A stretch of 59,011 bases of DNA from a virus, in IMG/VR virus record IMGVR_UViG_3300049215_000847, positions 1 to 59,011 of that record; one strand, 5' to 3'. The position numbers were made by a program, and so were the translations under genes. Below are positions 4,628-57,697 of this stretch, piece after piece. Numbering within the stretch: position 1 is the stretch's first letter; the number at the start of each line of letters is the position of its first letter. The notes under the pieces are model-generated. The model was not told the DNA's origin, made no database searches, and was given only the letters and a program-made list of their open reading frames with translations.

Positions 4628-5311
4628 ATGAGCGACGATCAGTTCGAGTTTCGCCTCACAGAAGCCCAGCTGACGGCGATCCAAGCGATGACCGCCGGCG
4701 GGATGCCGATCTCGCTGGTTGCCGAGGCGCTGCAGCTCCCCGAGGAGATCGTCAAGAACCAACGTCGGGAATGGCTGGTTGGCCGAATCGAGCGCGAACG
4801 GATCGCGGAGATCGAAACAGAACTCTTCGCGCCTCGCGAGTGCGCCAAGACCTGGTGGAAAGAAAACTTCCCCGACCTCTCGGCGAAGCAGCGCGCCTTC
4901 CTCGCTGCCTACGTCGTCACGGGAGGGAATCGCACAGAAGCAGCCGCTGCGGTGCCGGTCGAGCGCACGCTGACGTATCGGTGGGAGCACGAGCCGCAGT
5001 TTAGCCAAGCGCTTGAGGAAGCCGATCGCCAGGCCATCGACGTCCTGGTGGACACAGCCGTGAAAGAAGCGAAGGGCGTACTCGAGCCGATTTTCAATCG
5101 CGCCGGCGAATTGATCGGGCACAGGATCCGAAGATCCGGGCAGCTCCTGCTGGCGGCGATCGCGCGCAAGCGGCCGGAGTGGCGCCATCACATCTCGGCC
5201 GAGCTGACGGGCAAGGATGGCGGCCCAATCGAGACCAAACCGGCACTTCCGGACTGGCTTCTGGATGTCGTGAGACCGCCGGAGCCGCCCGCCGCTACCG
5301 ACACTCTATGA
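4628..5311 (+). CDS. Terminase small subunit-like protein
   Basis: The 227-residue product is helical and contains a helix-turn-helix-like segment where sequence around residues 83-118 reads LSAKQRAFLAAYVVTGGNRTEAAAAV and then a second helix. This is the usual TerS DNA-binding pattern (cell-like AFLxxY...G..xxAA). The last 100 residues should form the oligomerisation and large-subunit contact part. It overlaps the large terminase by four bases. TerS binds pac or cos DNA and loads the packaging motor. Confidence 0.8.
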   Translation: MSDDQFEFRLTEAQLTAIQAMTAGGMPISLVAEALQLPEEIVKNQRREWLVGRIERERIAEIETELFAPRECAKTWWKENFPDLSAKQRAFLAAYVVTGGNRTEAAAAVPVERTLTYRWEHEPQFSQALEEADRQAIDVLVDTAVKEAKGVLEPIFNRAGELIGHRIRRSGQLLLAAIARKRPEWRHHISAELTGKDGGPIETKPALPDWLLDVVRPPEPPAATDTL

Positions 5312-6732
5312 CGACGAAACGCCTTATTTTGGCCACCGCCGCATTCCTGATTTCCATGCCCAGCCAAGCAGAGGCAGCGAAAGGTTGGAAGTACGAGCCG
5401 CTCCGCAGCCAGCGCGAATTCCACGGCAATCTCCTGGACCCCACCAACCGGTATCTCGGCTTCTCGGGCCCGATCGGGAGCGGCAAGTCGCGTGCGCTCA
5501 TCTATCAGACTCTGTTTTCCGCGGCCCTGAATCCTGGGCTTCCCGGGCTCCTAGCCGCGCCGACATATCCGATGCTGCGCGACGCGACCCTCCAGAGCAT
5601 GTTCGACGTCCTGGGTGAGGAGGAAATCGATTATCGGCATGCGAAGTCGGAGAACGTGCTATACCTGCCGGATCCGCCTTTCCACGGCGCGAAGATTCTT
5701 TGCCGCTCCCTCGACGAGTTCGAACGCCTCCGCGGCACCAATCTGGCCTGGTTCGGCATCGACGAACTGACCTACGCGCCGCCTGAGGCGTGGACGCGCC
5801 TCGAGGGGCGCCTTCGACACCCCAAAGCGACCAGGCGGTGCGGCTTCGCCGTGTGGACGCCGAAGGGCTATGACTGGGTCTTCGAAGCATTCATCGGCAA
5901 TCCCAAGCCGGGCTATAAGGTGACGCTCGCAACGCCGCGCGAGAACCATTACGTGAACGCTACCGGCATGTATGACGCCCTGCAGGCCGGTTACGATGAG
6001 CGACTTTACAAGCAGGAGGTTCTCGGCGAATACCTGAGCCTGACATCGGGCGCGGCATATTACAGCTTCCGCCGGGAGCAGAACGTCCGAGAGCTGCCTT
6101 ATGACCACCGCCTGCCTCTCTGCTGGTCGCTCGACTTCAACATCAATCCGATGTGCTCGGTCATCGCCCAGATCGCCGACAACACAGATCCGATGGATTT
6201 CGCGCTCACCGGAAAGAAGTCTCTCGAGATCCGCGTGCTCGACGAGATCTTTCTCAGGGACTCGAACACTCCGGAGGCCTGTGAAGCATTCGTCGAAAAG
6301 TGCGCGCAGTATACGCGTCCCAATCCTCTGGTCGTCTACGTCTATGGCGATGCCTCAGGCAGCGCCCGCCAGCGCGCCGTCGGCTCCGGCGCGAACAGCG
6401 ATTGGGCAGTGATCAAAGAATTTTTTCGCCATCGCCGCGAGTTCAGACTCTCCTTCAAGTACAAAGCCTCGAACCCGGCCGTAAAGGACCGCGTCGGGGC
6501 GGTGAATGCGGCCCTGTGCAACTCGGAGGGCATCCGCCGGTTGTTGATTCATCCCCGATGCAAGAACCTCGTCAAAGACCTCGAGCAGGTCGTCTTCGAG
6601 CAGAGCAAAACGATTCTCGATCAAAAGACAGACCCAATGCTTACCCACGTCTCGGATGCGCTCGGGTACCTGACGGAAACCGAAATGGGGCTGCGCCAGG
6701 CCGGCGGTCCGCGCAGTATCTGGGTGGCATGA
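5308..6732 (+). CDS. Terminase large subunit (packaging ATPase-nuclease)
   Basis: 474 residues from the ATG overlapping the TerS stop. Walker A is GPIGSGKS (54-61), Walker B is FGIDE (Asp152, Glu153), and the RNase H-like nuclease acidic residues sit in SLDFN (Asp276), YGDAS (Asp348) and a C-terminal SDALGY. It cuts concatemeric DNA and drives it into the prohead through the portal. The first 24 residues, with a hydrophobic run and a MPSQAEAA end, look oddly like a signal peptide; translation from the ATG at 5356 would remove the hydrophobic run. Confidence 0.95.
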   Translation: MTTKRLILATAAFLISMPSQAEAAKGWKYEPLRSQREFHGNLLDPTNRYLGFSGPIGSGKSRALIYQTLFSAALNPGLPGLLAAPTYPMLRDATLQSMFDVLGEEEIDYRHAKSENVLYLPDPPFHGAKILCRSLDEFERLRGTNLAWFGIDELTYAPPEAWTRLEGRLRHPKATRRCGFAVWTPKGYDWVFEAFIGNPKPGYKVTLATPRENHYVNATGMYDALQAGYDERLYKQEVLGEYLSLTSGAAYYSFRREQNVRELPYDHRLPLCWSLDFNINPMCSVIAQIADNTDPMDFALTGKKSLEIRVLDEIFLRDSNTPEACEAFVEKCAQYTRPNPLVVYVYGDASGSARQRAVGSGANSDWAVIKEFFRHRREFRLSFKYKASNPAVKDRVGAVNAALCNSEGIRRLLIHPRCKNLVKDLEQVVFEQSKTILDQKTDPMLTHVSDALGYLTETEMGLRQAGGPRSIWVA

Positions 6733-6744
6733 GGAGCTCGATTT

Positions 6745-7062
6745 ATGCAAGCCAATTCATTCGGCCTCGTAACCGATACGGCCGGCGCCGCCACGCCGTT
6801 GACGACCGACACCACGATCCGCTGCTGCAAGATCCGCTTCCGCGCACGGAACGCGAACACCGGCCTGGTCAACGTGGGCATCGTCGGCTTCACGCCCGGG
6901 GGCGCCGGAATGATCGGCGAGGTGCTCAAGCCGTCGTCGGGCTATTCGGATCAGATTGACATCGACTCCTCGGATGGCGGCAACCTGCTCTACCCGGCGG
7001 ACTACGCCGTCAAGCCGGCGGTCAATGGGGAGGGGGTATATGTCTCCTACTGGATCCGATAG
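6745..7062 (+). CDS. Putative virion-associated protein, beta-rich
   Basis: A 105-residue protein with a repeating short-strand, Gly/Thr-rich composition (TDTTIRCCKIRFRARN, GLVNVGIVGF) resembling small structural beta-sandwich proteins. It lies between the large terminase and the portal. No named family recognised; a role as a head decoration or accessory protein is inference. Confidence 0.5.
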   Translation: MQANSFGLVTDTAGAATPLTTDTTIRCCKIRFRARNANTGLVNVGIVGFTPGGAGMIGEVLKPSSGYSDQIDIDSSDGGNLLYPADYAVKPAVNGEGVYVSYWIR

Positions 7063-7294
7063 CGTAGCCGGCAATTTCGGCACGGTCGGCGCACTCTATG
7101 CGGCGCGCATCTTGCCCCTGTGTCCCAAGGCCGGCATTATTTTGGTTGGAAGTGGTCTGCTCGCCTACCGGTACCGCGAATCGACCGAGCAGTTGACGAT
7201 CACGAATTGCGACGGCGCCGTCGTCTTCCCGGCGCTGAGCGGCGCCGATGCCAGGACCGCGCTGGCCGAGATTCAATCTCTCCCGCATGCCTAA
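7040..7294 (+). CDS. Hypothetical protein
   Basis: 84 residues from the ATG at 7040, overlapping the previous gene by 23 bases and the portal gene by eight. It has a hydrophobic ILVGSGLLAYRYR patch that may be a strand pair rather than a membrane segment, and ends in a helical segment. Function unknown. Confidence 0.5.
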   Translation: MSPTGSDSVAGNFGTVGALYAARILPLCPKAGIILVGSGLLAYRYRESTEQLTITNCDGAVVFPALSGADARTALAEIQSLPHA

Positions 7295-8888
7295 TTTCCC
7301 TCAATCCGCGCCGGTGAAAAAGCTCAACCAGGAGCATCCCGACTACTCCTTTTACAAAGAGACGTACGATCAGATCGACGCGCTCTATGAAGGCGGAGTC
7401 AAGATCCGCGAGGCTGTGGTCCGCGGCGGTCAGTTTTTGGTGAAAAACCCCAAGGAACTGCCGGAGGTCTTCGCGACGCGGCAACTGCGGTTCAGCTACA
7501 CCAACCTGCTCGGCAACATCATCGGCTGGTATATCTCGGCGTTATTCAAGCAGGCACCCCAGATCATCAAAAAGCGGGAAGGGGCGGCCGGTGAGGCGGC
7601 AACCAAGATCCCAGAGGACATTGCCGCATTCTGCGCAGCATTCGAGAAGGATTGCGACCGCGGACAGACGGAACTGAACGGCTTCTGGGGCCAGGTGGCC
7701 GAGACGGCGCTCCTCTACCGCTGCGCCTATGTGCTCAAAGACCTGCCCGCGCCAGGGGCCGGCGATGATATGCCCCTCAGCCTCCAGCAGCAAAAGCAGC
7801 AAGGGCTTCTCGATCCATACCTCGTGCTTTATAGACCGGCCAACGTCATCAACTGGGAAACCGACGCCCACGGCAACCTCGAATGGATCATCATCTACGC
7901 GCGAGTCCAGGAACAAGAATTCCTCGGCGATCCCGCGGTCACCGACTACTGGTATTTCTTCGATCGTCAGCAGGTCGTTCTCTATGAGCGCGAAGTAAAG
8001 ACCGGCAACGTCTCGACCGACACCGGAGGCCAGGAAGAGATGGCTATGCTGGTCGAGGGGTATCCGCGGCGCCATGCCATGACGGACCAGGACCAGGTTC
8101 CGATTTGTAAGATCGAGCTTCCCGAGGGCCTCTGGCTCGCCAACCGCGTCTTTCTTCCTCTCGTGAATCACCTCAACCAGGACAATGCCCTCGACTTCGG
8201 CCTCATGCAGGCGAACCTGCCGCAATTGGTTATCGAGGACGGGGACCAGGGCTCCTATGAGGAGCCGGTCACGATTTCTGCAGTGGGCTACCACCACATT
8301 CCGCACGGCGGCAAGATGTACTACCTGGAGCCCCAGGGTAAGGCGTATGAGGCGTCGCAGAAGCGGATCGATGGTCTCGAGGAGCGGGTCTACAGGGCCT
8401 GCTATTTGATGGACCAGGCGCGGACCAATCGGTCGACGCCGACGGCCCAGTCCGGCGTCTCGAAGCAACAGGACAAGACACCCTCCCGCGACGCGCTGTC
8501 CAAGATCGGCGACGTCCTCCGCCCGGCTATGCAGAATGCCTACCGCGACGTTCTCGCAATCGCGGGTTATGACAATATCGAGCCCGATGTCCGCGGTTTC
8601 GATTTCTCCGATCGCGCCACCGCCGAGGATATGAGTCTCCTCGAGCAGGCGAGCGTAGTCGAGGTCAATTCCCCGACCTATGAACGAGAACTGGGGAAAA
8701 AGGCCGTCCGCCTCACCCTCCCCGACTTGAACCCGGAAACGCTCGAAGAGATCGACGGCGAGATCGAGACGAACCCCACGCCGTCGGCTCAGGCCGCCGA
8801 GGCGAAGGAGCAGCAGCAGGCCATGATGGTCCAGAAGTTCCAGGCTTCCATGAAAGGCGCGGCCGGAGGAGGTCCGGCAACAGAATGA
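7287..8888 (+). CDS. Portal protein
   Basis: 533 residues from the ATG at 7287. Residues 1-90 show the portal-family opening (DYSFYKETYDQIDALYEGGVKI, then a run into NLLGNIIGWYISALFKQAP). The middle has the long mixed region with VFLPLVNHLNQDNALDFGLMQ, and the end is a Gln/Ala-rich basic tail. Position directly after terminase and before scaffold and coat supports the call. It forms the dodecameric DNA channel at one capsid vertex. Confidence 0.85.
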   Translation: MPNFPQSAPVKKLNQEHPDYSFYKETYDQIDALYEGGVKIREAVVRGGQFLVKNPKELPEVFATRQLRFSYTNLLGNIIGWYISALFKQAPQIIKKREGAAGEAATKIPEDIAAFCAAFEKDCDRGQTELNGFWGQVAETALLYRCAYVLKDLPAPGAGDDMPLSLQQQKQQGLLDPYLVLYRPANVINWETDAHGNLEWIIIYARVQEQEFLGDPAVTDYWYFFDRQQVVLYEREVKTGNVSTDTGGQEEMAMLVEGYPRRHAMTDQDQVPICKIELPEGLWLANRVFLPLVNHLNQDNALDFGLMQANLPQLVIEDGDQGSYEEPVTISAVGYHHIPHGGKMYYLEPQGKAYEASQKRIDGLEERVYRACYLMDQARTNRSTPTAQSGVSKQQDKTPSRDALSKIGDVLRPAMQNAYRDVLAIAGYDNIEPDVRGFDFSDRATAEDMSLLEQASVVEVNSPTYERELGKKAVRLTLPDLNPETLEEIDGEIETNPTPSAQAAEAKEQQQAMMVQKFQASMKGAAGGGPATE

Positions 8889-11101
8889 CGTCACTCGCCC
8901 GTTCCGTCGCTTCGTCTGAGCTGCTCGACCTTGCCCTGATGGTCTCCGGCAGCTGCTGGGGCGCCAAGGAATATCTGCCGGCGAAGCGAGCCGCCCAGCT
9001 CGCCCTTCAGATCGAACCCGCATGCGTGGAGGCCCTCACCCGGTTGGGGCGCGTGGCACTCGTCGAGCGGGACTTCGTGCGCGCGGAAGAGTACTTCGAG
9101 CGCGCAGCCACAGCGCAGGGCGGTTTCGACGCAACTACGGCCGTCAATCTCGCGATCGCCCAGGGGAGCCGACACCGATTCGGCGCAGCGTTGCAGATGT
9201 GCGACCTCGCGCTCTCGCTTGGCCCCGAGTTCCTCCCGGCCCACATTCACCGCGCGGCGCTCAACGAGGAGATCGGCCAGATCGAGGAGGCCGAGCGCCT
9301 CGTCGTGGATTCACTGCGCAGATTTCCCGGCCATCCGGAGTTGTTGTATGCTCTCGCGCTTTATCAGTTGAAGCGCGGCGACTTTGCAAACGGGTGGCTC
9401 AATTATGAGAACCGGCCGCCGCGGCTTCACCTGGCGTCCAAGCTCGAAGAATATCCCGAATGGGCCGGCGAGCCCCTCGACGGAAAGACGGTCCTGGTTT
9501 GCGGCGAGCAGGGGATGGGCGACCAGATCATGTTCGCGCGGTACATCCCGCTTCTCGAGGCGATCGGCGCCAAGGTGGTCTTCTTCACCCTTCCCGAGCT
9601 CGCGCGATTGTTCGCCGGAGCGCTCCTGAACTGCCGGGTCATCACTGGCGACGCCGAGCTGGCCGGCATCGAGCCCGATTACTGGGTGGCGGCCGGTAGT
9701 CTTCCGCTGAAATGGCGGACCATTGAGAACATCGATGTTGTCCGGTCTCCCGCGCAGGACCCGGCGCTGTTTCCATACCTGTGGGCCCCGCGCGCCGAGA
9801 TCGATCGCTTCGGCGCGCTGATCTCCGGTACCGGTAACCTGCGCGTGGGCCTCTGCTGGAAGGGGAATCCGAAGCATCGCCGCGATGAATATCGCTCCAT
9901 GCCGTTCGCCGAGTTGAAGCCGCTGCTTGAAATTCCCGGGATCGATTTTTATTCGCTGCAGCGAGGCGATACCGAGTCCGGGCTGATCGATCTGACGGCC
10001 TACTGCCATGACATGGCGGACACTGCCGCGGCGATCGCGAATCTCGACCTTGTGATCACGGTCGACACCGCGGTCTTGCATCTTGCAGGCGCGATGGGCA
10101 AGCCGGTTTGGGGCCTGATCTATACGCCGGGCGATTGGCGGTGGGGTTCGGCGGAGGCCCGCGCGACACCCTGGTATTCGAGCGCGCGCCTGATACGGCA
10201 GCGGAAGCAACTCGTCTGGGGGCCTGAGATTGGGCAGCTCGCATGCGACCTTTGGCTGAGAAGGTGCAGTATCGCCGGCAAGGAGAACAAGGTCCGGCGT
10301 GCTTACACGGATGGCAAGTTCACCGGTTTTGGCAACTGCAAGTATGGCGCCATGAGCTGGCCCGGGAACGATCACTACATCGGCCGCGCCCTCGATCTCT
10401 ACGGCGAGTATTCCGAGTCGGAAATGGCGATGCTGCGAAGGGTGCTGGCGCCCGGCGACACCGTCGTCGAAGCGGGAGCCAATGTCGGCGGCCTCACGGT
10501 GCCGATTGCCCAGCACGTCGGGATTGAGGGAAAGGTACATGCGTTCGAGCCACAGCCGGCCTATTTCCGATGCCTCACGGACAATCTCTTGCGAAACACT
10601 GTTGCGGTGCGCGCGCCGATGGCGCTCGGCTGCGCCGCCGGCAGGATGACGCTTCGACGGGTTGAGGAAGCGAAAGTCCATGCGCCCGGCTGGGCATCGA
10701 CAGGGCCGGAATTCACGGTGGGCGTCACGACGGTGGACGCGCTTGGGCTGGAGACCTGCCATCTCATCAAAATCGACGTCGACGGCGCCGAGCACGAAAT
10801 CCTGAGAGGCGCTGAAGCGACGATCGGCCGATGCCGGCCGTTTATCTACGTCGAGTACGATAAGCCGACGGAATATCCCGAGATGCTCGCCTGGCTTGCG
10901 ACGAAGGGCTATCGGCTGGGCTATCGGCTTTATCGTCACGCAGCGCCGTTGTTCAATCCGCACAATTGGTGGGGCAACCAGGTCAATGTGTTCGGCTCGC
11001 TGGTGAGCCTGATGGTGTTAGCCGTTCCCGCCGAGCGTAAGGGGATCCACCCGACCGAGTGGGGCATCGAGCGGATCCAGATCGATCACGAAGTTTTGTA
11101 A
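8885..11101 (+). CDS. TPR - glycosyltransferase - FkbM methyltransferase fusion
   Basis: 738 residues in three parts. About 15-175 are tetratricopeptide repeats (A...LALQIEPACVEAL-type helices). About 190-460 resemble the GT-B glycosyltransferases of the heptosyltransferase/TPR-OGT-like group: GEQGMGDQIMFARYIPLL (207-224), RVGLCWKGNPKHRRDEYRS, and the nucleotide-sugar site with ITVDTAVLHLAGAMGKPVWGL (391-411). About 475-725 are an FkbM-type methyltransferase: SAM loop VEAGANVGGLT (528-538), FEPQP (554-558), LIKIDVDGAEHEIL. The protein likely adds and then O-methylates a sugar. It overlaps the portal by four bases, so it is expressed with the head genes; capsid glycosylation is an inference. 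Confidence 0.88.
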   Translation: MTSLARSVASSELLDLALMVSGSCWGAKEYLPAKRAAQLALQIEPACVEALTRLGRVALVERDFVRAEEYFERAATAQGGFDATTAVNLAIAQGSRHRFGAALQMCDLALSLGPEFLPAHIHRAALNEEIGQIEEAERLVVDSLRRFPGHPELLYALALYQLKRGDFANGWLNYENRPPRLHLASKLEEYPEWAGEPLDGKTVLVCGEQGMGDQIMFARYIPLLEAIGAKVVFFTLPELARLFAGALLNCRVITGDAELAGIEPDYWVAAGSLPLKWRTIENIDVVRSPAQDPALFPYLWAPRAEIDRFGALISGTGNLRVGLCWKGNPKHRRDEYRSMPFAELKPLLEIPGIDFYSLQRGDTESGLIDLTAYCHDMADTAAAIANLDLVITVDTAVLHLAGAMGKPVWGLIYTPGDWRWGSAEARATPWYSSARLIRQRKQLVWGPEIGQLACDLWLRRCSIAGKENKVRRAYTDGKFTGFGNCKYGAMSWPGNDHYIGRALDLYGEYSESEMAMLRRVLAPGDTVVEAGANVGGLTVPIAQHVGIEGKVHAFEPQPAYFRCLTDNLLRNTVAVRAPMALGCAAGRMTLRRVEEAKVHAPGWASTGPEFTVGVTTVDALGLETCHLIKIDVDGAEHEILRGAEATIGRCRPFIYVEYDKPTEYPEMLAWLATKGYRLGYRLYRHAAPLFNPHNWWGNQVNVFGSLVSLMVLAVPAERKGIHPTEWGIERIQIDHEVL

Positions 11102-11180: not shown

Positions 11181-11951
11181 ATGATTAAGTTTTGGCTGAA
11201 CAGTCCTCTGCGCGAGCAAGCCGGTGAAGGCGCCGGCGGGTCGGGCGGGGGCAGCGGCGCCGGAGCCGGCAATTCCGGGGCAGTAACCTTCGATCCCGGG
11301 GCTTTCAAGACCGAGATCCTGGGTGAGTTTAACAAGACCATCAACGGCGCTCTGAAGTCACTCAAAACCGACTTCACGAAGGCGCTCGAAGGGTTGAAGC
11401 CCGCGGCTGGCGGCACTGGGGGCGGCGCTGGCGAAGGCGCGGGCGGATCCGGTTCCGGCACGGGAGAAGGCGCCGGAACCAAGGGCGCCGATCCCCAGGT
11501 GAATGCGCTCCAGTTGGAGTTGAAGAAAGAGCGCGAGCAGAATGCCGCACGGATCAAAGCTCTCGAGGATCAGAGCAAGGCCGACAGGGATCGGGCCGAG
11601 CAGATGGCCCTCGGAGGTGCTCTGCGCGATGCTCTATCGAAATACGATTTCGTCGGCGCCGATGCCCAGGCGGACGCGGTCGCGCTGTTCACACCCCAAG
11701 TCCAGAAAGCTGAGGACGGCTCGTACGTCGCCGGCGATCTTCCCCTCGATAAATTCATCGAGCAGCAGCTCAACGGCAAAAAGGGATACCTCCTCAAGCC
11801 GAAAGACGTGAGCGGCGCCGGCGCACGCACCGGCAAAGCCGCGGGCTCGAAGAAGTGGGACCTCGATACGGTCCTGAAGCCCGAGAACTTCTCGAAGCTC
11901 ACTTCCGCAGAACAAGCCGAGGTTCGGCAGCAAATCGCCTCCAGCCTGTAA
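11181..11951 (+). CDS. Capsid scaffolding protein
   Basis: 256 residues directly before the coat gene. Two Gly/Ser/Ala-rich linkers (about 14-36 and 77-100) flank a helical stretch, followed by a charged coiled coil (about 112-150) and a C-terminal basic/helical part ending LTSAEQAEVRQQI. Low-complexity linkers plus coiled coil plus a short basic C-terminus that would contact coat are typical of scaffold proteins, which shape the prohead and then leave. Confidence 0.75.
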   Translation: MIKFWLNSPLREQAGEGAGGSGGGSGAGAGNSGAVTFDPGAFKTEILGEFNKTINGALKSLKTDFTKALEGLKPAAGGTGGGAGEGAGGSGSGTGEGAGTKGADPQVNALQLELKKEREQNAARIKALEDQSKADRDRAEQMALGGALRDALSKYDFVGADAQADAVALFTPQVQKAEDGSYVAGDLPLDKFIEQQLNGKKGYLLKPKDVSGAGARTGKAAGSKKWDLDTVLKPENFSKLTSAEQAEVRQQIASSL

Positions 11952-12005: not shown

Positions 12006-12917
12006 ATGGCAAATGAAATCCTTTCTCAAAACGCCCTGATGGCGATTCCGAAGCTGGTGGCGGCCGATGTGCTGCCGGCGGTGGTTGGAAACCTCGTCAT
12101 GGGCAACCTGGTCAATCGCGACTATGAGGCGACCCTGGCGCAGGCCGGCGACGTCGTAAACGTGCCGATCGCGCCCAACCTGACCGCCAACAACATCGCC
12201 GAGTCCGGCACCGTCACCAACCAAAACAAGTCGCTGGGCAACGGGCAGATCACTCTTTCCCGGCACTTCGAGTCCAGCTTCTCGATTCCGGACGTCACCC
12301 AGGTGTTCACCCGTCCGGACCTGGTCCGGACCTTCATGCAGTCCGCTGTCATCGCCGTGGCCGAGCAGATCGAGACCGATCTGCTGAGCGTTTACGGCCA
12401 GCTCAACTACAACACCGCGGCCGGTTCGTCCAACACTGCGTTGACCGAAGCGACCGTCGACACCGCCGAGACCAACCTGTTCAACGCCAAAGTGCCGGGC
12501 GGCCTGCCGAAGTTCCTGGTCGTGAGCGGGACCGCCTACGGGCAGCTCCGTCAGATCGGCCGGTTCACTGAACTGCAGACCGCGGCGCTCGGCCTCACCG
12601 GGCCCAACCCGATCCTGACTGGCCAGATCCTGCAGGTGAAGGGTTTCAACGTGCTCCGTAGCCAGTATGTCCAGAAGGTGGGTTCGACCACCTACAATCT
12701 GGCGTTCGTGCGCGACGCGATCGCGCTCGCCGTCCGTCGGCTGCCGGTCGTGCCGCCGGGCATGGGTGCCATCCAGACGTATGCCGAATATGGCAACTTC
12801 GGGATGCGCATCACCATGTCCTACGTGCCCGGCCAGCTCGAGCAGCAGTTCACGGTCGACGCTCTGTGGGGCGCCGGCGTCCTGCGCAACAACTTCGGCG
12901 AACAGGTTCTCAGCTAG
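12006..12917 (+). CDS. Major capsid protein, P22 coat-like (HK97 fold)
   Basis: 303 residues. The N-terminus (ILSQNALMAIPKLVAADVLPAVVGNLVMGNLVNRDY) and DVVNVPIAP block match the P22 gp5-like coat family, with the typical FSIPDVTQVFTRPDLVRTFMQSAVIAVAEQIETDL spine-helix region and a C-terminal P-loop region. It is shorter than P22 coat (about 430), lacking most of the insertion domain. It follows scaffold as expected and should form the icosahedral shell. Confidence 0.92.
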   Translation: MANEILSQNALMAIPKLVAADVLPAVVGNLVMGNLVNRDYEATLAQAGDVVNVPIAPNLTANNIAESGTVTNQNKSLGNGQITLSRHFESSFSIPDVTQVFTRPDLVRTFMQSAVIAVAEQIETDLLSVYGQLNYNTAAGSSNTALTEATVDTAETNLFNAKVPGGLPKFLVVSGTAYGQLRQIGRFTELQTAALGLTGPNPILTGQILQVKGFNVLRSQYVQKVGSTTYNLAFVRDAIALAVRRLPVVPPGMGAIQTYAEYGNFGMRITMSYVPGQLEQQFTVDALWGAGVLRNNFGEQVLS

Positions 12918-13415: not shown

Positions 13416-13799
13416 ATGTCCATCTCGAACATCACCACCGGCGCCCAGACCGTCACCGCGACGGGCGCCGTAACCGCCACGACCGGCCTCGATATCTCCG
13501 GCATCACCGGCGATTGCACGGTCCACCTGCGCGTCCAGGGCCTGTCGGCCGCATCCGGGACTCCCAAGGCCACGATCCAGATCGAGGACTCGGTCAACGG
13601 CTTTACGGCCGTCCAGCCGGTCTGCATGAAGGAAGTCCAGGGCCCCATCGACAGTAAGACGGAGATCCACTTCTCCTGGCGCAAGTACGAGCTGCCCAAT
13701 GCCCGCTTCGGCACCGCGAGTGCCGTGCTGCGCGCCAACGTCATGGTCCTCGGCGGGACCACCCCGAGCCTGACGCTGGACTCCTGGCTCGAAAACTAG
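13416..13799 (+). CDS. Putative capsid decoration/structural beta protein
   Basis: 127 residues, strongly beta-rich and Thr/Gly-rich, with a single domain that fits head-decoration or head-fibre proteins. It lies between coat and connector genes, and a strong terminator hairpin follows, implying that coat and this protein are made in excess over downstream genes. Family not recognised with certainty. Confidence 0.6.
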   Translation: MSISNITTGAQTVTATGAVTATTGLDISGITGDCTVHLRVQGLSAASGTPKATIQIEDSVNGFTAVQPVCMKEVQGPIDSKTEIHFSWRKYELPNARFGTASAVLRANVMVLGGTTPSLTLDSWLEN

Positions 13800-44454: not shown

Positions 44455-46146
44455 TCATGCGAACAGATCCTCGCTTGCGCGCAGCGCTGACCGCGGCCCC
44501 ATGATCAGTTCCCGTGTTCGCAACTCGCTGAGCATGTTCCCAAAATGCCCGGCGGTGGCCACCTTGCCTATCCGCTCGCCGATCTCCTGATCGGACAGGG
44601 CGCGCGGATGGACGCTGATCAGGACCCGCAGGATTTCCGCCGCCCCCTTGGGCAGGCGGGATAGCCACCAGGCGTGCAGATCACGGCCGGTGGGCAGGGG
44701 TTCGTACGAACCCAGTGCGGCCAAGCCGGCGCTCGTGATTCGCAATGCCGAACGCTCTCCTTCGACATATGCCGCGGTCCGCAGCTCCGAAAGCAGATTC
44801 CCAAAGTGCCCGGCGCTGGCGACCAACCCTGTGAGGGCTCCCAGTTTGGTGTCGGCCGACTCGCCGAACTGAGCGAGAGCGGTGAGAATCCGGCGGCCGC
44901 CCTTTGAAAGTTTGCCGGCGCCCGGGCTCGGCGCGGTCGTGGCTGGCTTCGGACGCGCGGGGCTCTGGACGGACGGGGCGCCTGCCGCCGCCTGGAGCCG
45001 ACGTGGCAGCGTAATCGTATCGACGAACTGCGCCAGGTGCCGCGCCTGAACGAGCGCCTCATTCAGCCTGTCCGCGGCTCCGGCGATATCGAGAATAATC
45101 TCGCCATACTCCTGATGGACGGAGCGAGCCGCCTCTTTGCGGATTTCTGACTCTCGTGCCAGTGCGATCGTGGGATCGGCAGGAGGCTTCCGGCCCAACT
45201 CCGCACGCAGGCGCGCTATCTCTGCCCGTAGCTCCCGCGGATCCTCTGCCTTTGCCTTCTCAAACTGCGCCGCCAGACGCTCGCGCACGGCCGCTATGTC
45301 GACCTCGGCCAGCTGCTTCGGTTTCTTCGCCGCCTTCCCGGCCTTCGGTGTAGCGCTCGAGTCGAACGTTTCGATCGGCTCGACCTCGACCCGCTGGAAG
45401 ACGTCCAGCCAGCCCGGAGACCAGAACCAGGCCGTGCCGACCGGAAGCGAGGGAAGGGACACCATCAACTCGTCTCCCTGCTCTTCGCTACCGTGGACGC
45501 GGATCCAAGCCTCGATCGCCGCGCGGTCCTGAGGCGCGATGGTGCGCAGCGCGACGAGGACCTCCGCCTGCGTAAGGACGTCCTTATTGATCACGGCGGC
45601 GCGCTGTGTAATGAGCGTGACACCGATGCCGCGGGCCCGGCCGCGCCGTACGATGTCTTCGATCGCGCCAAGCAGCCGCTCCTGCCCCTTGAAGGGCTTC
45701 TGCGGTGCGAACGCATCAGCCTCGTCGAGGAAGAGGTGGAGAGCCTCCCGGTTGGAATGGTAAAGCCGTTCGGCAAAATCCGTCATGAAGCGCGTCTGCT
45801 CATTCTTCCGGAATTGGGAGAGATCGAGGACTGCGGAGAGGCGCTCCTCCACCAGCATGCGAGCCACAATTTCGCCGGCGCCGACATCGAGCGGCGCATC
45901 CGCGTACTCGCCTCCGAGGACAAGGATCGGCAGGCCAGGCCCCCTTCCGTCCGCCGAGCTGCGCAATCCCCACCACACGCCGATCGGGTCGACGACAGCG
46001 ATCGGGGCCGCGGCGGCCTTGAGCATCTGTTCCGCCATCTTTTTGGCGGTGTATGTCTTGCCGACGCCCCGCTTCGCCAGGATGGCGAACGTCTCCGTGA
46101 CGGCCTCCGCCGGCAGCGTAAAATCTTTCCCGATCCGCAGTTTCAA
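44455..46146 (-). CDS. HerA/FtsK-like ATPase with C-terminal winged-helix repeats
   Basis: 563 residues. Walker A is AKRGVGKTYT (Lys30), followed by PIAVVDPIGVWWG, and Walker B is LHLFLDEADAF (Asp141, Glu142), with the HerA-type ITQRAAVINKDVLTQAEVLVAL block. A coiled-coil region (about 285-365) precedes two related winged-helix-like units with the repeated words AGHFGNLLSELRT and AGHFGNMLSELRT. HerA-like ATPases translocate DNA or assist recombination; in phages and islands they are also defence components. Last gene of the long leftward operon. Confidence 0.85.
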   Translation of the reverse strand: MKLRIGKDFTLPAEAVTETFAILAKRGVGKTYTAKKMAEQMLKAAAAPIAVVDPIGVWWGLRSSADGRGPGLPILVLGGEYADAPLDVGAGEIVARMLVEERLSAVLDLSQFRKNEQTRFMTDFAERLYHSNREALHLFLDEADAFAPQKPFKGQERLLGAIEDIVRRGRARGIGVTLITQRAAVINKDVLTQAEVLVALRTIAPQDRAAIEAWIRVHGSEEQGDELMVSLPSLPVGTAWFWSPGWLDVFQRVEVEPIETFDSSATPKAGKAAKKPKQLAEVDIAAVRERLAAQFEKAKAEDPRELRAEIARLRAELGRKPPADPTIALARESEIRKEAARSVHQEYGEIILDIAGAADRLNEALVQARHLAQFVDTITLPRRLQAAAGAPSVQSPARPKPATTAPSPGAGKLSKGGRRILTALAQFGESADTKLGALTGLVASAGHFGNLLSELRTAAYVEGERSALRITSAGLAALGSYEPLPTGRDLHAWWLSRLPKGAAEILRVLISVHPRALSDQEIGERIGKVATAGHFGNMLSELRTRELIMGPRSALRASEDLFA

Positions 46147-49823: not shown

Positions 49824-50026
49824 GGGCACCTCCCTTCGGCCTGGCGACGCATGCGACGCGGCACGCGACATCCGCCGCTTGATTTTGGGCCGGCGCTGGC
49901 CTCGACGTGAACGTCTTTGAGCCCGCACTTCTCCATGTGGAAGCGCACCGTCTCTACGAGTGCCTCTAACAGGCAGTTCGGAAGATCGAACGGATAGTCG
50001 CCAGTCGCCGTAATTTCGACGTGCAT
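49820..50026 (-). CDS. Small hypothetical protein
   Basis: 68 residues from the ATG sharing TGATG with the DUF5131 stop. Opens HVEITATGDYPFDLPNCLLEALVETVRF, a strand-helix pattern, with a basic C-terminal tail. Family not recognised. Confidence 0.55.
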   Translation of the reverse strand: MHVEITATGDYPFDLPNCLLEALVETVRFHMEKCGLKDVHVEASAGPKSSGGCRVPRRMRRQAEGRCP

Positions 50027-51069
50027 CAAGCGCGGCCTCCTCGCTTCGCGGCGGGGCCCCTTCCGTGGGGCGTCACGGTCACGGGAATGGGGAATTCACA
50101 CCATTGGCGACCGTCAAGGAGACGGCCCGCCGCCTTCTTCCCGACGCGGTACATGATCGGTCCGAGGTCAGCTTCGTCTACCCAGTCGTCGGAGCACTCC
50201 ACCCATCTCTCGTCGAAAAGCACGCAGGAGGGGTGTTTGCGGCTATCGGCAACACATTCGCCCGGCGCCCAATCGCCCCATTGCTTGAATAGGAAAGGCA
50301 CCCGTGACCTGACGCAGATATCGCGAATTTGCCGGACCCACTCGGGATGAGTCGGGCGTGCGCCACTGCCGGATTCCCCTCCGACAATCACCCAATCGAT
50401 AGCAGGGAGCACCGGTTCCCATGTCATCCCAACGCGTTGGAAGCGGCCCACCATGGAACCGTCTGGCGCGTCATAATCCGGGTCGGTCACATCGAAGGAT
50501 TGTCCCCAGACGTGGTACTGAATGTCTACCGCTCCCAGCAGCGGTTCCATGCTCAGACCCCGAGTGGCGAAAGGCGTCTTCAAGAGATCATCCGCGCGCC
50601 AAAGGCACGCGGCGGATTCGACGGTAGTCATGCCGCAAACGTTGGGCCGGGGATGCTGGAGCCATTCCTCTGGCAAGAACCGCCGGAAGTTTTGGGGCCG
50701 CTTTGTGAGCAGAAGCCATTCGAGATATGGCGTCTCCTCGATCAGGCAGTACAGCCGCTCGCGATCAGGCGCGAGTTCCGGCCGATCCTCCATGACATCG
50801 GCCATCGAGGCGCAGAACACGCGCCGCCGCACGCCATCCTTCTCCGCGGCTCTGTTCCAGGCGAGAGGCTCCCGCCAGTGCCCGTCACCAAAGACACGCC
50901 GTCCCGCGTCCTTGCCCCAGATTGGAAACCGGAAACCCCCCTCGCCATATCCGTACCGTTTCGAGTCACGTTCCGCGTAGCAGTTGTCGCACGCGGGTGA
51001 CACCTTGGTGCAACCCCACCACGGATTAAAGGTGTGATGACACCATTCAATGCCGGTCTTGGCGCCCAT
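50026..51069 (-). CDS. DUF5131 (phage Gp37/Gp68-like) radical-SAM-type protein
   Basis: 347 residues from the ATG at 51069 with GGAGG nearby. TGIEWCHHTFNPWWGCTKVSPACDNCYAE (residues 5-33) holds Cys20, Cys27 and Cys30, the three-cysteine iron-sulphur motif, and the later IDWVIVGGESGSGARPTHPEW and FLFKQWGDW are family hallmarks. The family is common in phages and mobile elements and resembles spore-photoproduct-lyase-like radical SAM enzymes; its substrate is unknown. Confidence 0.88.
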   Translation of the reverse strand: MGAKTGIEWCHHTFNPWWGCTKVSPACDNCYAERDSKRYGYGEGGFRFPIWGKDAGRRVFGDGHWREPLAWNRAAEKDGVRRRVFCASMADVMEDRPELAPDRERLYCLIEETPYLEWLLLTKRPQNFRRFLPEEWLQHPRPNVCGMTTVESAACLWRADDLLKTPFATRGLSMEPLLGAVDIQYHVWGQSFDVTDPDYDAPDGSMVGRFQRVGMTWEPVLPAIDWVIVGGESGSGARPTHPEWVRQIRDICVRSRVPFLFKQWGDWAPGECVADSRKHPSCVLFDERWVECSDDWVDEADLGPIMYRVGKKAAGRLLDGRQWCEFPIPVTVTPHGRGPAAKRGGRA

Positions 51070-51248
51070 CAGTCTTCCTCCCCCTGGAAGTGGCTGCAAC
51101 GCGCCTCTTCACACGTCATCGGGTGATGACACTCGGTGGCATGACCGTAAGAGCAGAACCAGCACGCGATCGGATTTACGGCCTCGATCGGGCAAGCGCC
51201 GTGCTGGATCAGTTCCATGCCCATCGGATAGGCTTTGGCCTCCGCCAT
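51069..51248 (-). CDS. Small Cys/His-rich protein
   Basis: 59 residues. CWFCSYGHATECHHPMTC and EARCSHF in the last half supply many zinc ligands. Its stop (TGA at 51069-51071) overlaps the start of the DUF5131 gene by one base, so translation is coupled; a redox or Fe-S partner role is conceivable. Family not recognised. Confidence 0.6.
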   Translation of the reverse strand: MAEAKAYPMGMELIQHGACPIEAVNPIACWFCSYGHATECHHPMTCEEARCSHFQGEED

Positions 51249-57058: not shown

Positions 57059-57697
57059 ATGAAGACCTTCCTGAGCTGGTCCGGAGAGAAGAGCCGGATG
57101 TTCGGAGAATCGTTCAAGCCCTGGCTCGAACAAGTACTTCCGGGTAACGACGTGTGGCTGTCGAGCGAGGACATCGATAAAGGGACCATCTGGTTCACCG
57201 AAATCGTTGGCGAGCTCGAGAAGTGCAATTGCGGCATCATCCTCATCACCCGCGAAAACCGGAATGCGCCGTGGATCCACTTCGAGGCCGGCGGTATGGT
57301 CAAGGGCCTCGGAAAATCGCGCGTCGCTACCGTGCTCCTGGACCTCGATTATTCGGAGCTGAGCCCTCCGTTGAACCAGTTCAACGGCACGCGGGTGAAC
57401 CGGCAGGGCGCATGGCATCTGGTCAAGTCGCTGAACCGGCTGGCCGGGGACCGCGCCATCAAAGACCGCGTCCTTGAGAAGACCTTCGACAAATTCTGGC
57501 AGGAGCTGGATGACGAATACCGGATGCAGTTTCCGGATTCCCATCGGGAGGCCGCGGCGGAGCCGAAGCCCGTCTATATTGCTCCGCCGCCGGCCGCCGT
57601 CGACATCCCCTTGCTGGGGACTCTGGCAAAGACCGGGAAAAAGAAGAATAGCGGCTACGGCGAACAGCCCGGCCTTTTCAACGGCATCAAGGAATAG
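57059..57697 (+). CDS. TIR-domain protein
   Basis: 212 residues. KTFLSWSGEKSRMFGESFKPWL (2-23) is the TIR beta-A/helix pattern, DVWLSSEDIDKGTIW (31-45) follows, and GIILITRENRNAPWIHFEAGGM (59-80) holds the presumed catalytic Glu76. The rest (VATVLLDLDYSELSPPLNQFN) matches the bacterial TIR-like group. The last 60 residues form a Pro/Ala tail and a basic end. TIR domains hydrolyse NAD+ or make cyclic ADP-ribose signals in anti-phage systems. It is the only + strand gene among the early operon, at its head, suggesting a moron. Confidence 0.85.
   Translation: MKTFLSWSGEKSRMFGESFKPWLEQVLPGNDVWLSSEDIDKGTIWFTEIVGELEKCNCGIILITRENRNAPWIHFEAGGMVKGLGKSRVATVLLDLDYSELSPPLNQFNGTRVNRQGAWHLVKSLNRLAGDRAIKDRVLEKTFDKFWQELDDEYRMQFPDSHREAAAEPKPVYIAPPPAAVDIPLLGTLAKTGKKKNSGYGEQPGLFNGIKE

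Follow-up and report, generated by a model that had tools for sequence, protein, structure and literature searches.

A single-chain TPR, glycosyltransferase and FkbM methyltransferase protein encoded beside a phage portal gene, a candidate modifier of virion proteins

The stretch of DNA analyzed here (the window, 59,011 bases) is one entire IMG/VR record of an uncultured virus of bacteria. Its head operon contains a gene that encodes a TPR part, a glycosyltransferase (GT) and an FkbM methyltransferase in a single chain, located between the portal and scaffolding genes. The genes and features of the locus are as follows.

5179..6732, plus strand: large terminase gene (phrog_2, E 6e-34)
7248..8888, plus strand: portal gene, the stop of which overlaps the start of the fusion gene by 4 bp (phrog_145, E 7e-38)
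8885..11101, plus strand: TPR-GT9-like-FkbM fusion gene, 738 aa, ATG start (ORF list, Pfam, NCBIfam, AlphaFold2)
8885..9454, plus strand: TPR part of the fusion, residues 1-190, helical repeats (Pfam TPR at residues 49-168; AlphaFold2 helices at 2-186)
9455..10294, plus strand: GT-B glycosyltransferase part, GT9-like, residues 191-470 (Glyco_transf_9 match, AlphaFold2 model, conserved motifs)
9503..9523, plus strand: GEQGMGD motif, residues 207-213, with E208, G210, G212 and D213 invariant in 54/54 (alignment of TPR-GTs)
10064..10081, plus strand: DTAVLH motif, residues 394-399, presumed donor site, with D394 in 53/54 and H399 in 54/54 (alignment of TPR-GTs)
10295..11098, plus strand: FkbM methyltransferase part and conserved C-terminal tail, residues 471-738 (PF05050, TIGR01444, AlphaFold2, PDB match 2py6)
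10469..10489, plus strand: EAGANVG SAM-binding motif, residues 529-535, intact (alignment of FkbM sequences)
11181..11951, plus strand: scaffolding protein gene (phrog_206, E 2e-5)
12006..12917, plus strand: gene of the P22-type coat (major head) protein, a candidate acceptor (phrog_283, E 8e-32; PF11651)
13416..13799, plus strand: gene of a 127-aa Ser/Thr-rich small protein after the coat, a candidate decoration protein by its sequence, with similar proteins in relatives

The relatives of the terminase align with it from about residue 62 onward, so the start codon called is probably too far upstream. Elsewhere in the record, a NusG-like (possibly RfaH-like) protein is encoded at the very start (1-519), a HerA-like ATPase and a DUF5131 protein (E 8e-70) lie on the minus strand (44455-46146 and 50026-51099), and a TIR-domain protein (TIR_2), a possible defense or counter-defense gene, is found near the end (57059-57697). 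The ORFs of a tyrosine integrase and an N6/N4 DNA methylase (1617-2807 and 1360-2106), both Pfam matches on the plus strand, lie in different frames with an odd overlap of some 490 bp, and one of the two starts may be too far upstream.

The sequence-only reading had described a 738-residue protein with TPR, GT-B and FkbM parts, and this is borne out by the exact ORF, the Pfam and NCBIfam matches and the AlphaFold2 models. The Pfam TPR families match between residues 49 and 168, Glyco_transf_9 matches at residues 378-415 (25.7 bits against a cutoff of 22, over a span of only about 40 residues), and PF05050 at residues 530-678 (E 2e-19, 70.6 bits against a cutoff of 22.7), while the NCBIfam model fkbM_fam (TIGR01444) scores 84.0 bits against a cutoff of 37.7. 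The NCBIfam heptosyltransferase I model matches the C-terminal region of the GT at 23.3 bits and does not reach its equivalog cutoff of 185.3 bits, so the GT part is named GT9-like here, rather than a heptosyltransferase. No OGT-type (GT41) catalytic family was found in the GT part by Pfam at E<=0.01. Judged by its sequence, the GT resembles the GT9 family (heptosyltransferases) rather than GT41/OGT. The protein is similar to the GT9 heptosyltransferases and TibC-like enzymes in the two matches of its C-terminal GT region, but these are short or low-scoring, and it has its own N-terminal TPR and C-terminal FkbM parts.

The AlphaFold2 models, based on alignments of related loci, are confident for both the TPR and GT-B parts (residues 1-470, pLDDT 93.7, pTM 0.92) and the methyltransferase (residues 470-738, pLDDT 90.4, pTM 0.89). 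The top solved match to the methyltransferase model is an FkbM methyltransferase (PDB 2py6). For the TPR-GT model, the nearest full-length structures are viral TPR-GT proteins in BFVD (TM 0.72-0.73), and the best PDB matches by Foldseek are SPY and OGT, for which the TM-score is low (about 0.4) and the TPR part may dominate. OGT and SPINDLY resemble the fusion in carrying a GT-B domain after a TPR superhelix, but the GT part of the fusion has a GT9-like match only in Pfam, and neither OGT nor SPINDLY has an FkbM domain.

The integrity of the enzyme was assessed in alignments of 54 TPR-GTs and 41 FkbM sequences. The GT part contains a GxGD and a DTxxxH motif, one in each Rossmann half. In heptosyltransferases, the donor is bound by the DTxxxH region, and the N-terminal GxGD motif supplies the Asp that presumably acts as the base. 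The fusion of the window retains all the invariant or near-invariant GT residues listed above, and also Y431, which is invariant in the 54 sequences. In the FkbM part, the SAM motif, E555, K629 and D631 are retained, but Ala is found at position 600 and Asp at position 633, where 39 of the 41 sequences have Asn and Glu, respectively. These two substitutions (N600A and E633D) at near-invariant positions indicate that the methyltransferase could be altered or weak.

The relatives of the fusion were obtained by scanning IMG/VR with the GT alignment; a single-sequence scan of genome_contigs recovered no relatives. A fusion with the same three domains in the same order adjoins the portal gene in four other contigs, L186 (706 aa), L187 (890 aa), L190 (733 aa) and L231 (722 aa), and is 36-45% identical to that of the window over nearly its full length. 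The fusion lies between the portal and the scaffold and coat genes in L231, between the portal and the coat in L190, and by the portal with the scaffold downstream in L187, while the contig of L186 stops before the point at which the scaffold and coat would be reached. In a fifth contig, L188, there is a 4-bp overlap between the portal and a 452-aa TPR-GT, shortly after which the sequence stops. The gene order had been proposed beforehand as something to be sought in other phages, and these contigs provide it. The recurrence of the protein beside the portal, together with a GC3 of 0.78 that is in line with the adjoining genes, argues that the fusion is not an accident of assembly, and the GC3 gives no indication of a very recent acquisition. 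In L187 (9221-9592), roughly 140 additional residues lie between the GT and FkbM parts, which are missing from its close relative L186. In the annotated phage records searched, the best matches span less than 60% of the fusion, and TPR-GT-FkbM fusions are unnamed.

The portals of the fusion-positive contigs are only 32-35% identical to that of the window, so the 36-45% identity of the fusions points to long retention at one site. Their terminases are 46-68% identical to that of the window. Between L186 and L187, dN is 0.080 and dS is 0.407 for the whole fusion (dN/dS of about 0.2), with values of 0.080/0.476 = 0.17 for the GT and 0.058/0.223 = 0.26 for the FkbM part, which is indicative of purifying selection on both domains. 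The reading frame and the GT motifs are intact in all the full-length copies.

The placement of the gene, overlapping the portal and ahead of the scaffold and coat, was also part of the original description, and it holds, given the 4-bp overlap and the identification of all three neighbors by PHROGs. No promoter-like site was found between positions 6600 and 13500 of the window and, given its absence between the portal and the fusion, the gene is likely to be expressed late, together with the head genes. The earlier suggestion of expression in step with head assembly is thus considered likely.

The fusion is nevertheless absent from L006/L008 and L009-L013. In six closer portal relatives (L008 and L009-L013; portals 50-62% identical to that of the window, coats 48-84%), the portal and scaffold genes have no fusion between them, so that the gene is an accessory with a fixed site but a patchy distribution. 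No match to the fusion was found elsewhere in the available contigs of the fusion-negative relatives, and their portal-scaffold gaps returned only chance-level matches to a remnant. The head module of the window is a mosaic relative to L008 and L186. Its coat is 84% identical to that of the fusion-negative L008, which is its sister in the portal and coat trees, whereas its terminase is 68% identical to that of the fusion-positive L186, and groups with L186/L187 in the terminase tree. This patchy presence and the conflicting trees point to gains, losses or exchanges of the gene at a single fixed position and, as L008 has almost the same coat but lacks it, the gene is dispensable for that kind of head. 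A single coat column (Thr137 in the window) separates the three fusion-positive coats, which all have Ser or Thr there, from the six fusion-negative ones, which all have other residues; given the small number of sequences, this may be due to chance, and it was set aside as evidence. A portal search of 396 Acidobacteriota genomes for the host returned only two distant matches (29-30% identity).

Genes of these kinds are found well beyond this lineage, with at least 582 TPR-GT and at least 490 FkbM relatives in IMG/VR. Some of these are embedded in head or packaging modules, for example, in the order TerS, TPR-GT, FkbM, TerL, portal in L002, TerS, TPR-GT, TerL in L003, TerS, TPR-GT, TerL, FkbM, portal in L070, and major head protein, TPR-GT, GT2-FkbM in L072. 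A TPR-GT, an FkbM or both lie downstream of the major head protein in L200, L202, L210 and L243, adjoin TerL in L230, and are found within the head or packaging modules of ctDrO704 and ct2t2046. A head or packaging gene was detected, by a crude criterion, near at least about 13 of the 52 non-redundant TPR-GT loci, which is a raw count and not an enrichment. The pooled neighbors of the phage TPR-GTs also include replication genes (clamp loader, DNA polymerase and helicase), and further TPR-GTs sit by tail fiber genes, so location alone cannot fix the target. A place among the head genes is thus well established for the window's own TPR-GT-FkbM lineage, but cannot be extended as a rule to phage TPR-GTs at large. 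In L014 (Synechococcus phage BUCT-ZZ01), a 571-aa GT9-like protein (5734-7449) is encoded beside tail fiber genes; it was rejected as a GT-FkbM fusion, as no FkbM domain is recognized by HMM or Pfam, although its C-terminal part, which is not FkbM, looks methyltransferase-like by eye.

The favored reading, which is held with some confidence, is that the fusion acts on a virion protein as the particle assembles, adding a sugar and probably a methyl group. Its translation would take place late, as part of the head operon and in coupling with the portal gene, and its TPR part would dock on a virion protein, in the head or elsewhere, with the coat, the scaffold and the procapsid as possible partners. 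From a host nucleotide-sugar, the GT9-like GT-B domain would then move a sugar onto the docked protein or its glycan, and the FkbM domain, with SAM, would methylate the transferred sugar, probably at a hydroxyl. TPR domains are typical protein-binding modules, and this, together with the position in the head operon, the portal overlap and the lack of an internal promoter-like site, makes a virion protein the likeliest acceptor. The succession of GT and FkbM in one chain suggests that the sugar is added and then methylated. It counts against this reading that none of the tested ORFs of the window was recognized as a gene for nucleotide-sugar synthesis. Catalysis and the order of its steps are inferred, as are the identities of the acceptor and the sugar and any advantage to the phage, be it in particle stability, adsorption or shielding. 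For the capsid as the target, and for a sugar that is added and then capped, as first proposed, the support is only indirect.

The main rival, considered rather unlikely, is that the fusion acts on a surface glycan or glycoprotein of the host, such as O-antigen, flagellin or pilin, which it would modify and methylate, altering phage receptors in a form of surface conversion or superinfection exclusion. It owes this standing to the tyrosine integrase, by which the phage may be temperate, and to the similar enzymes of bacterial surface glycosylation loci. FkbM genes are present in flagellin glycosylation islands (PMC5109656), FkbM and TPR-GT genes are paired in the bacterial chromosomes of L106 (overlapping) and L114, and are fused as a 1964-aa FkbM-TPR-GT protein in L118. 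Fusions of the reversed order, FkbM-GT, also follow tail genes in L030 and L040. A host-directed enzyme fits less well, however, with a gene that has no promoter-like site of its own, begins within the portal gene, and occupies a site in the head operon in the window and in four or five other phages, and no GtrA/GtrB-like membrane partner was noticed beside it.

That the target is DNA, through hypermodification, or a non-virion protein of the phage, is improbable. The TPR module and the fixed place beside the portal run counter to it, and no base-hypermodification genes were recognized among the ORFs tested, even though certain phage TPR-GTs lie near replication genes and DNA-modifying phage GTs are known (review). 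Least probable of all is that the gene is a neutral or decaying accessory, taken from a host and retained fortuitously where the portal-scaffold boundary tolerates insertions, which would accord with the patchy presence and the two substitutions in the methyltransferase, but not with the low dN/dS of both domains, the intact frames and GT motifs, or a site kept among such divergent portals.

The reading of the fusion as a virion-modifying enzyme has counterparts in known systems. In the Corndog-type (cluster O) mycobacteriophages, an O-methyltransferase (gp35), glycosyltransferases (gp36-37) and a GlcNAc-transferase (gp38) are encoded between the portal and the capsid protease, and capsid modification has been proposed for gp35-38 (PMC4351075). 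As in these virion-glycosylation modules, the GT and methyltransferase functions of the window are both located inside the head operon, between the portal and capsid genes. The likeness is one of gene order. The Corndog genes are separate, rather than a single TPR-GT-FkbM chain, and belong to another phage family and host. The A064R protein of chlorovirus PBCV-1, in turn, joins two GTs and a methyltransferase, and the two rhamnoses and the methyl group that it attaches are part of the glycan on the major capsid protein (PMC9614988). It is similar to the fusion in the joining of GT and SAM-methyltransferase in a single protein, but differs in having two GT domains, the first of which is GT-A, with no TPR described, and in its early expression in a eukaryotic virus, and no relationship is claimed.

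Such fusions had been described beforehand as rarely discussed. This stands for the phage TPR-GT-FkbM proteins, for which no description was found in the open literature searched, but not for the general arrangement of GTs and methyltransferases encoded between the portal and the capsid genes, which has already been published for the Corndog-like phages. The concept thus has precedents, but in the open literature searched neither a single-chain form conserved at one site nor a set of near-identical capsids that differ in the presence of the fusion has been described.

More tentatively, the fusion may be a bacterial-virus counterpart of A064R, in which the TPR part docks on the assembling head, a coat or decoration protein is glycosylated and methyl-capped, and the gene is a cassette that can be exchanged where the portal and scaffold genes meet. 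The number of relatives in IMG/VR indicates a widespread group, and capsid glycosylation by phage enzymes has been demonstrated in very few phages. If this counterpart reading is true, near-identical capsids exist with and without a methylated glycan coat. A one-gene enzyme of this kind in the head operon, present in some phages and absent from others with nearly the same coat protein, would make the role of capsid glycans testable both by the comparison of such natural pairs and by the deletion of a single gene.
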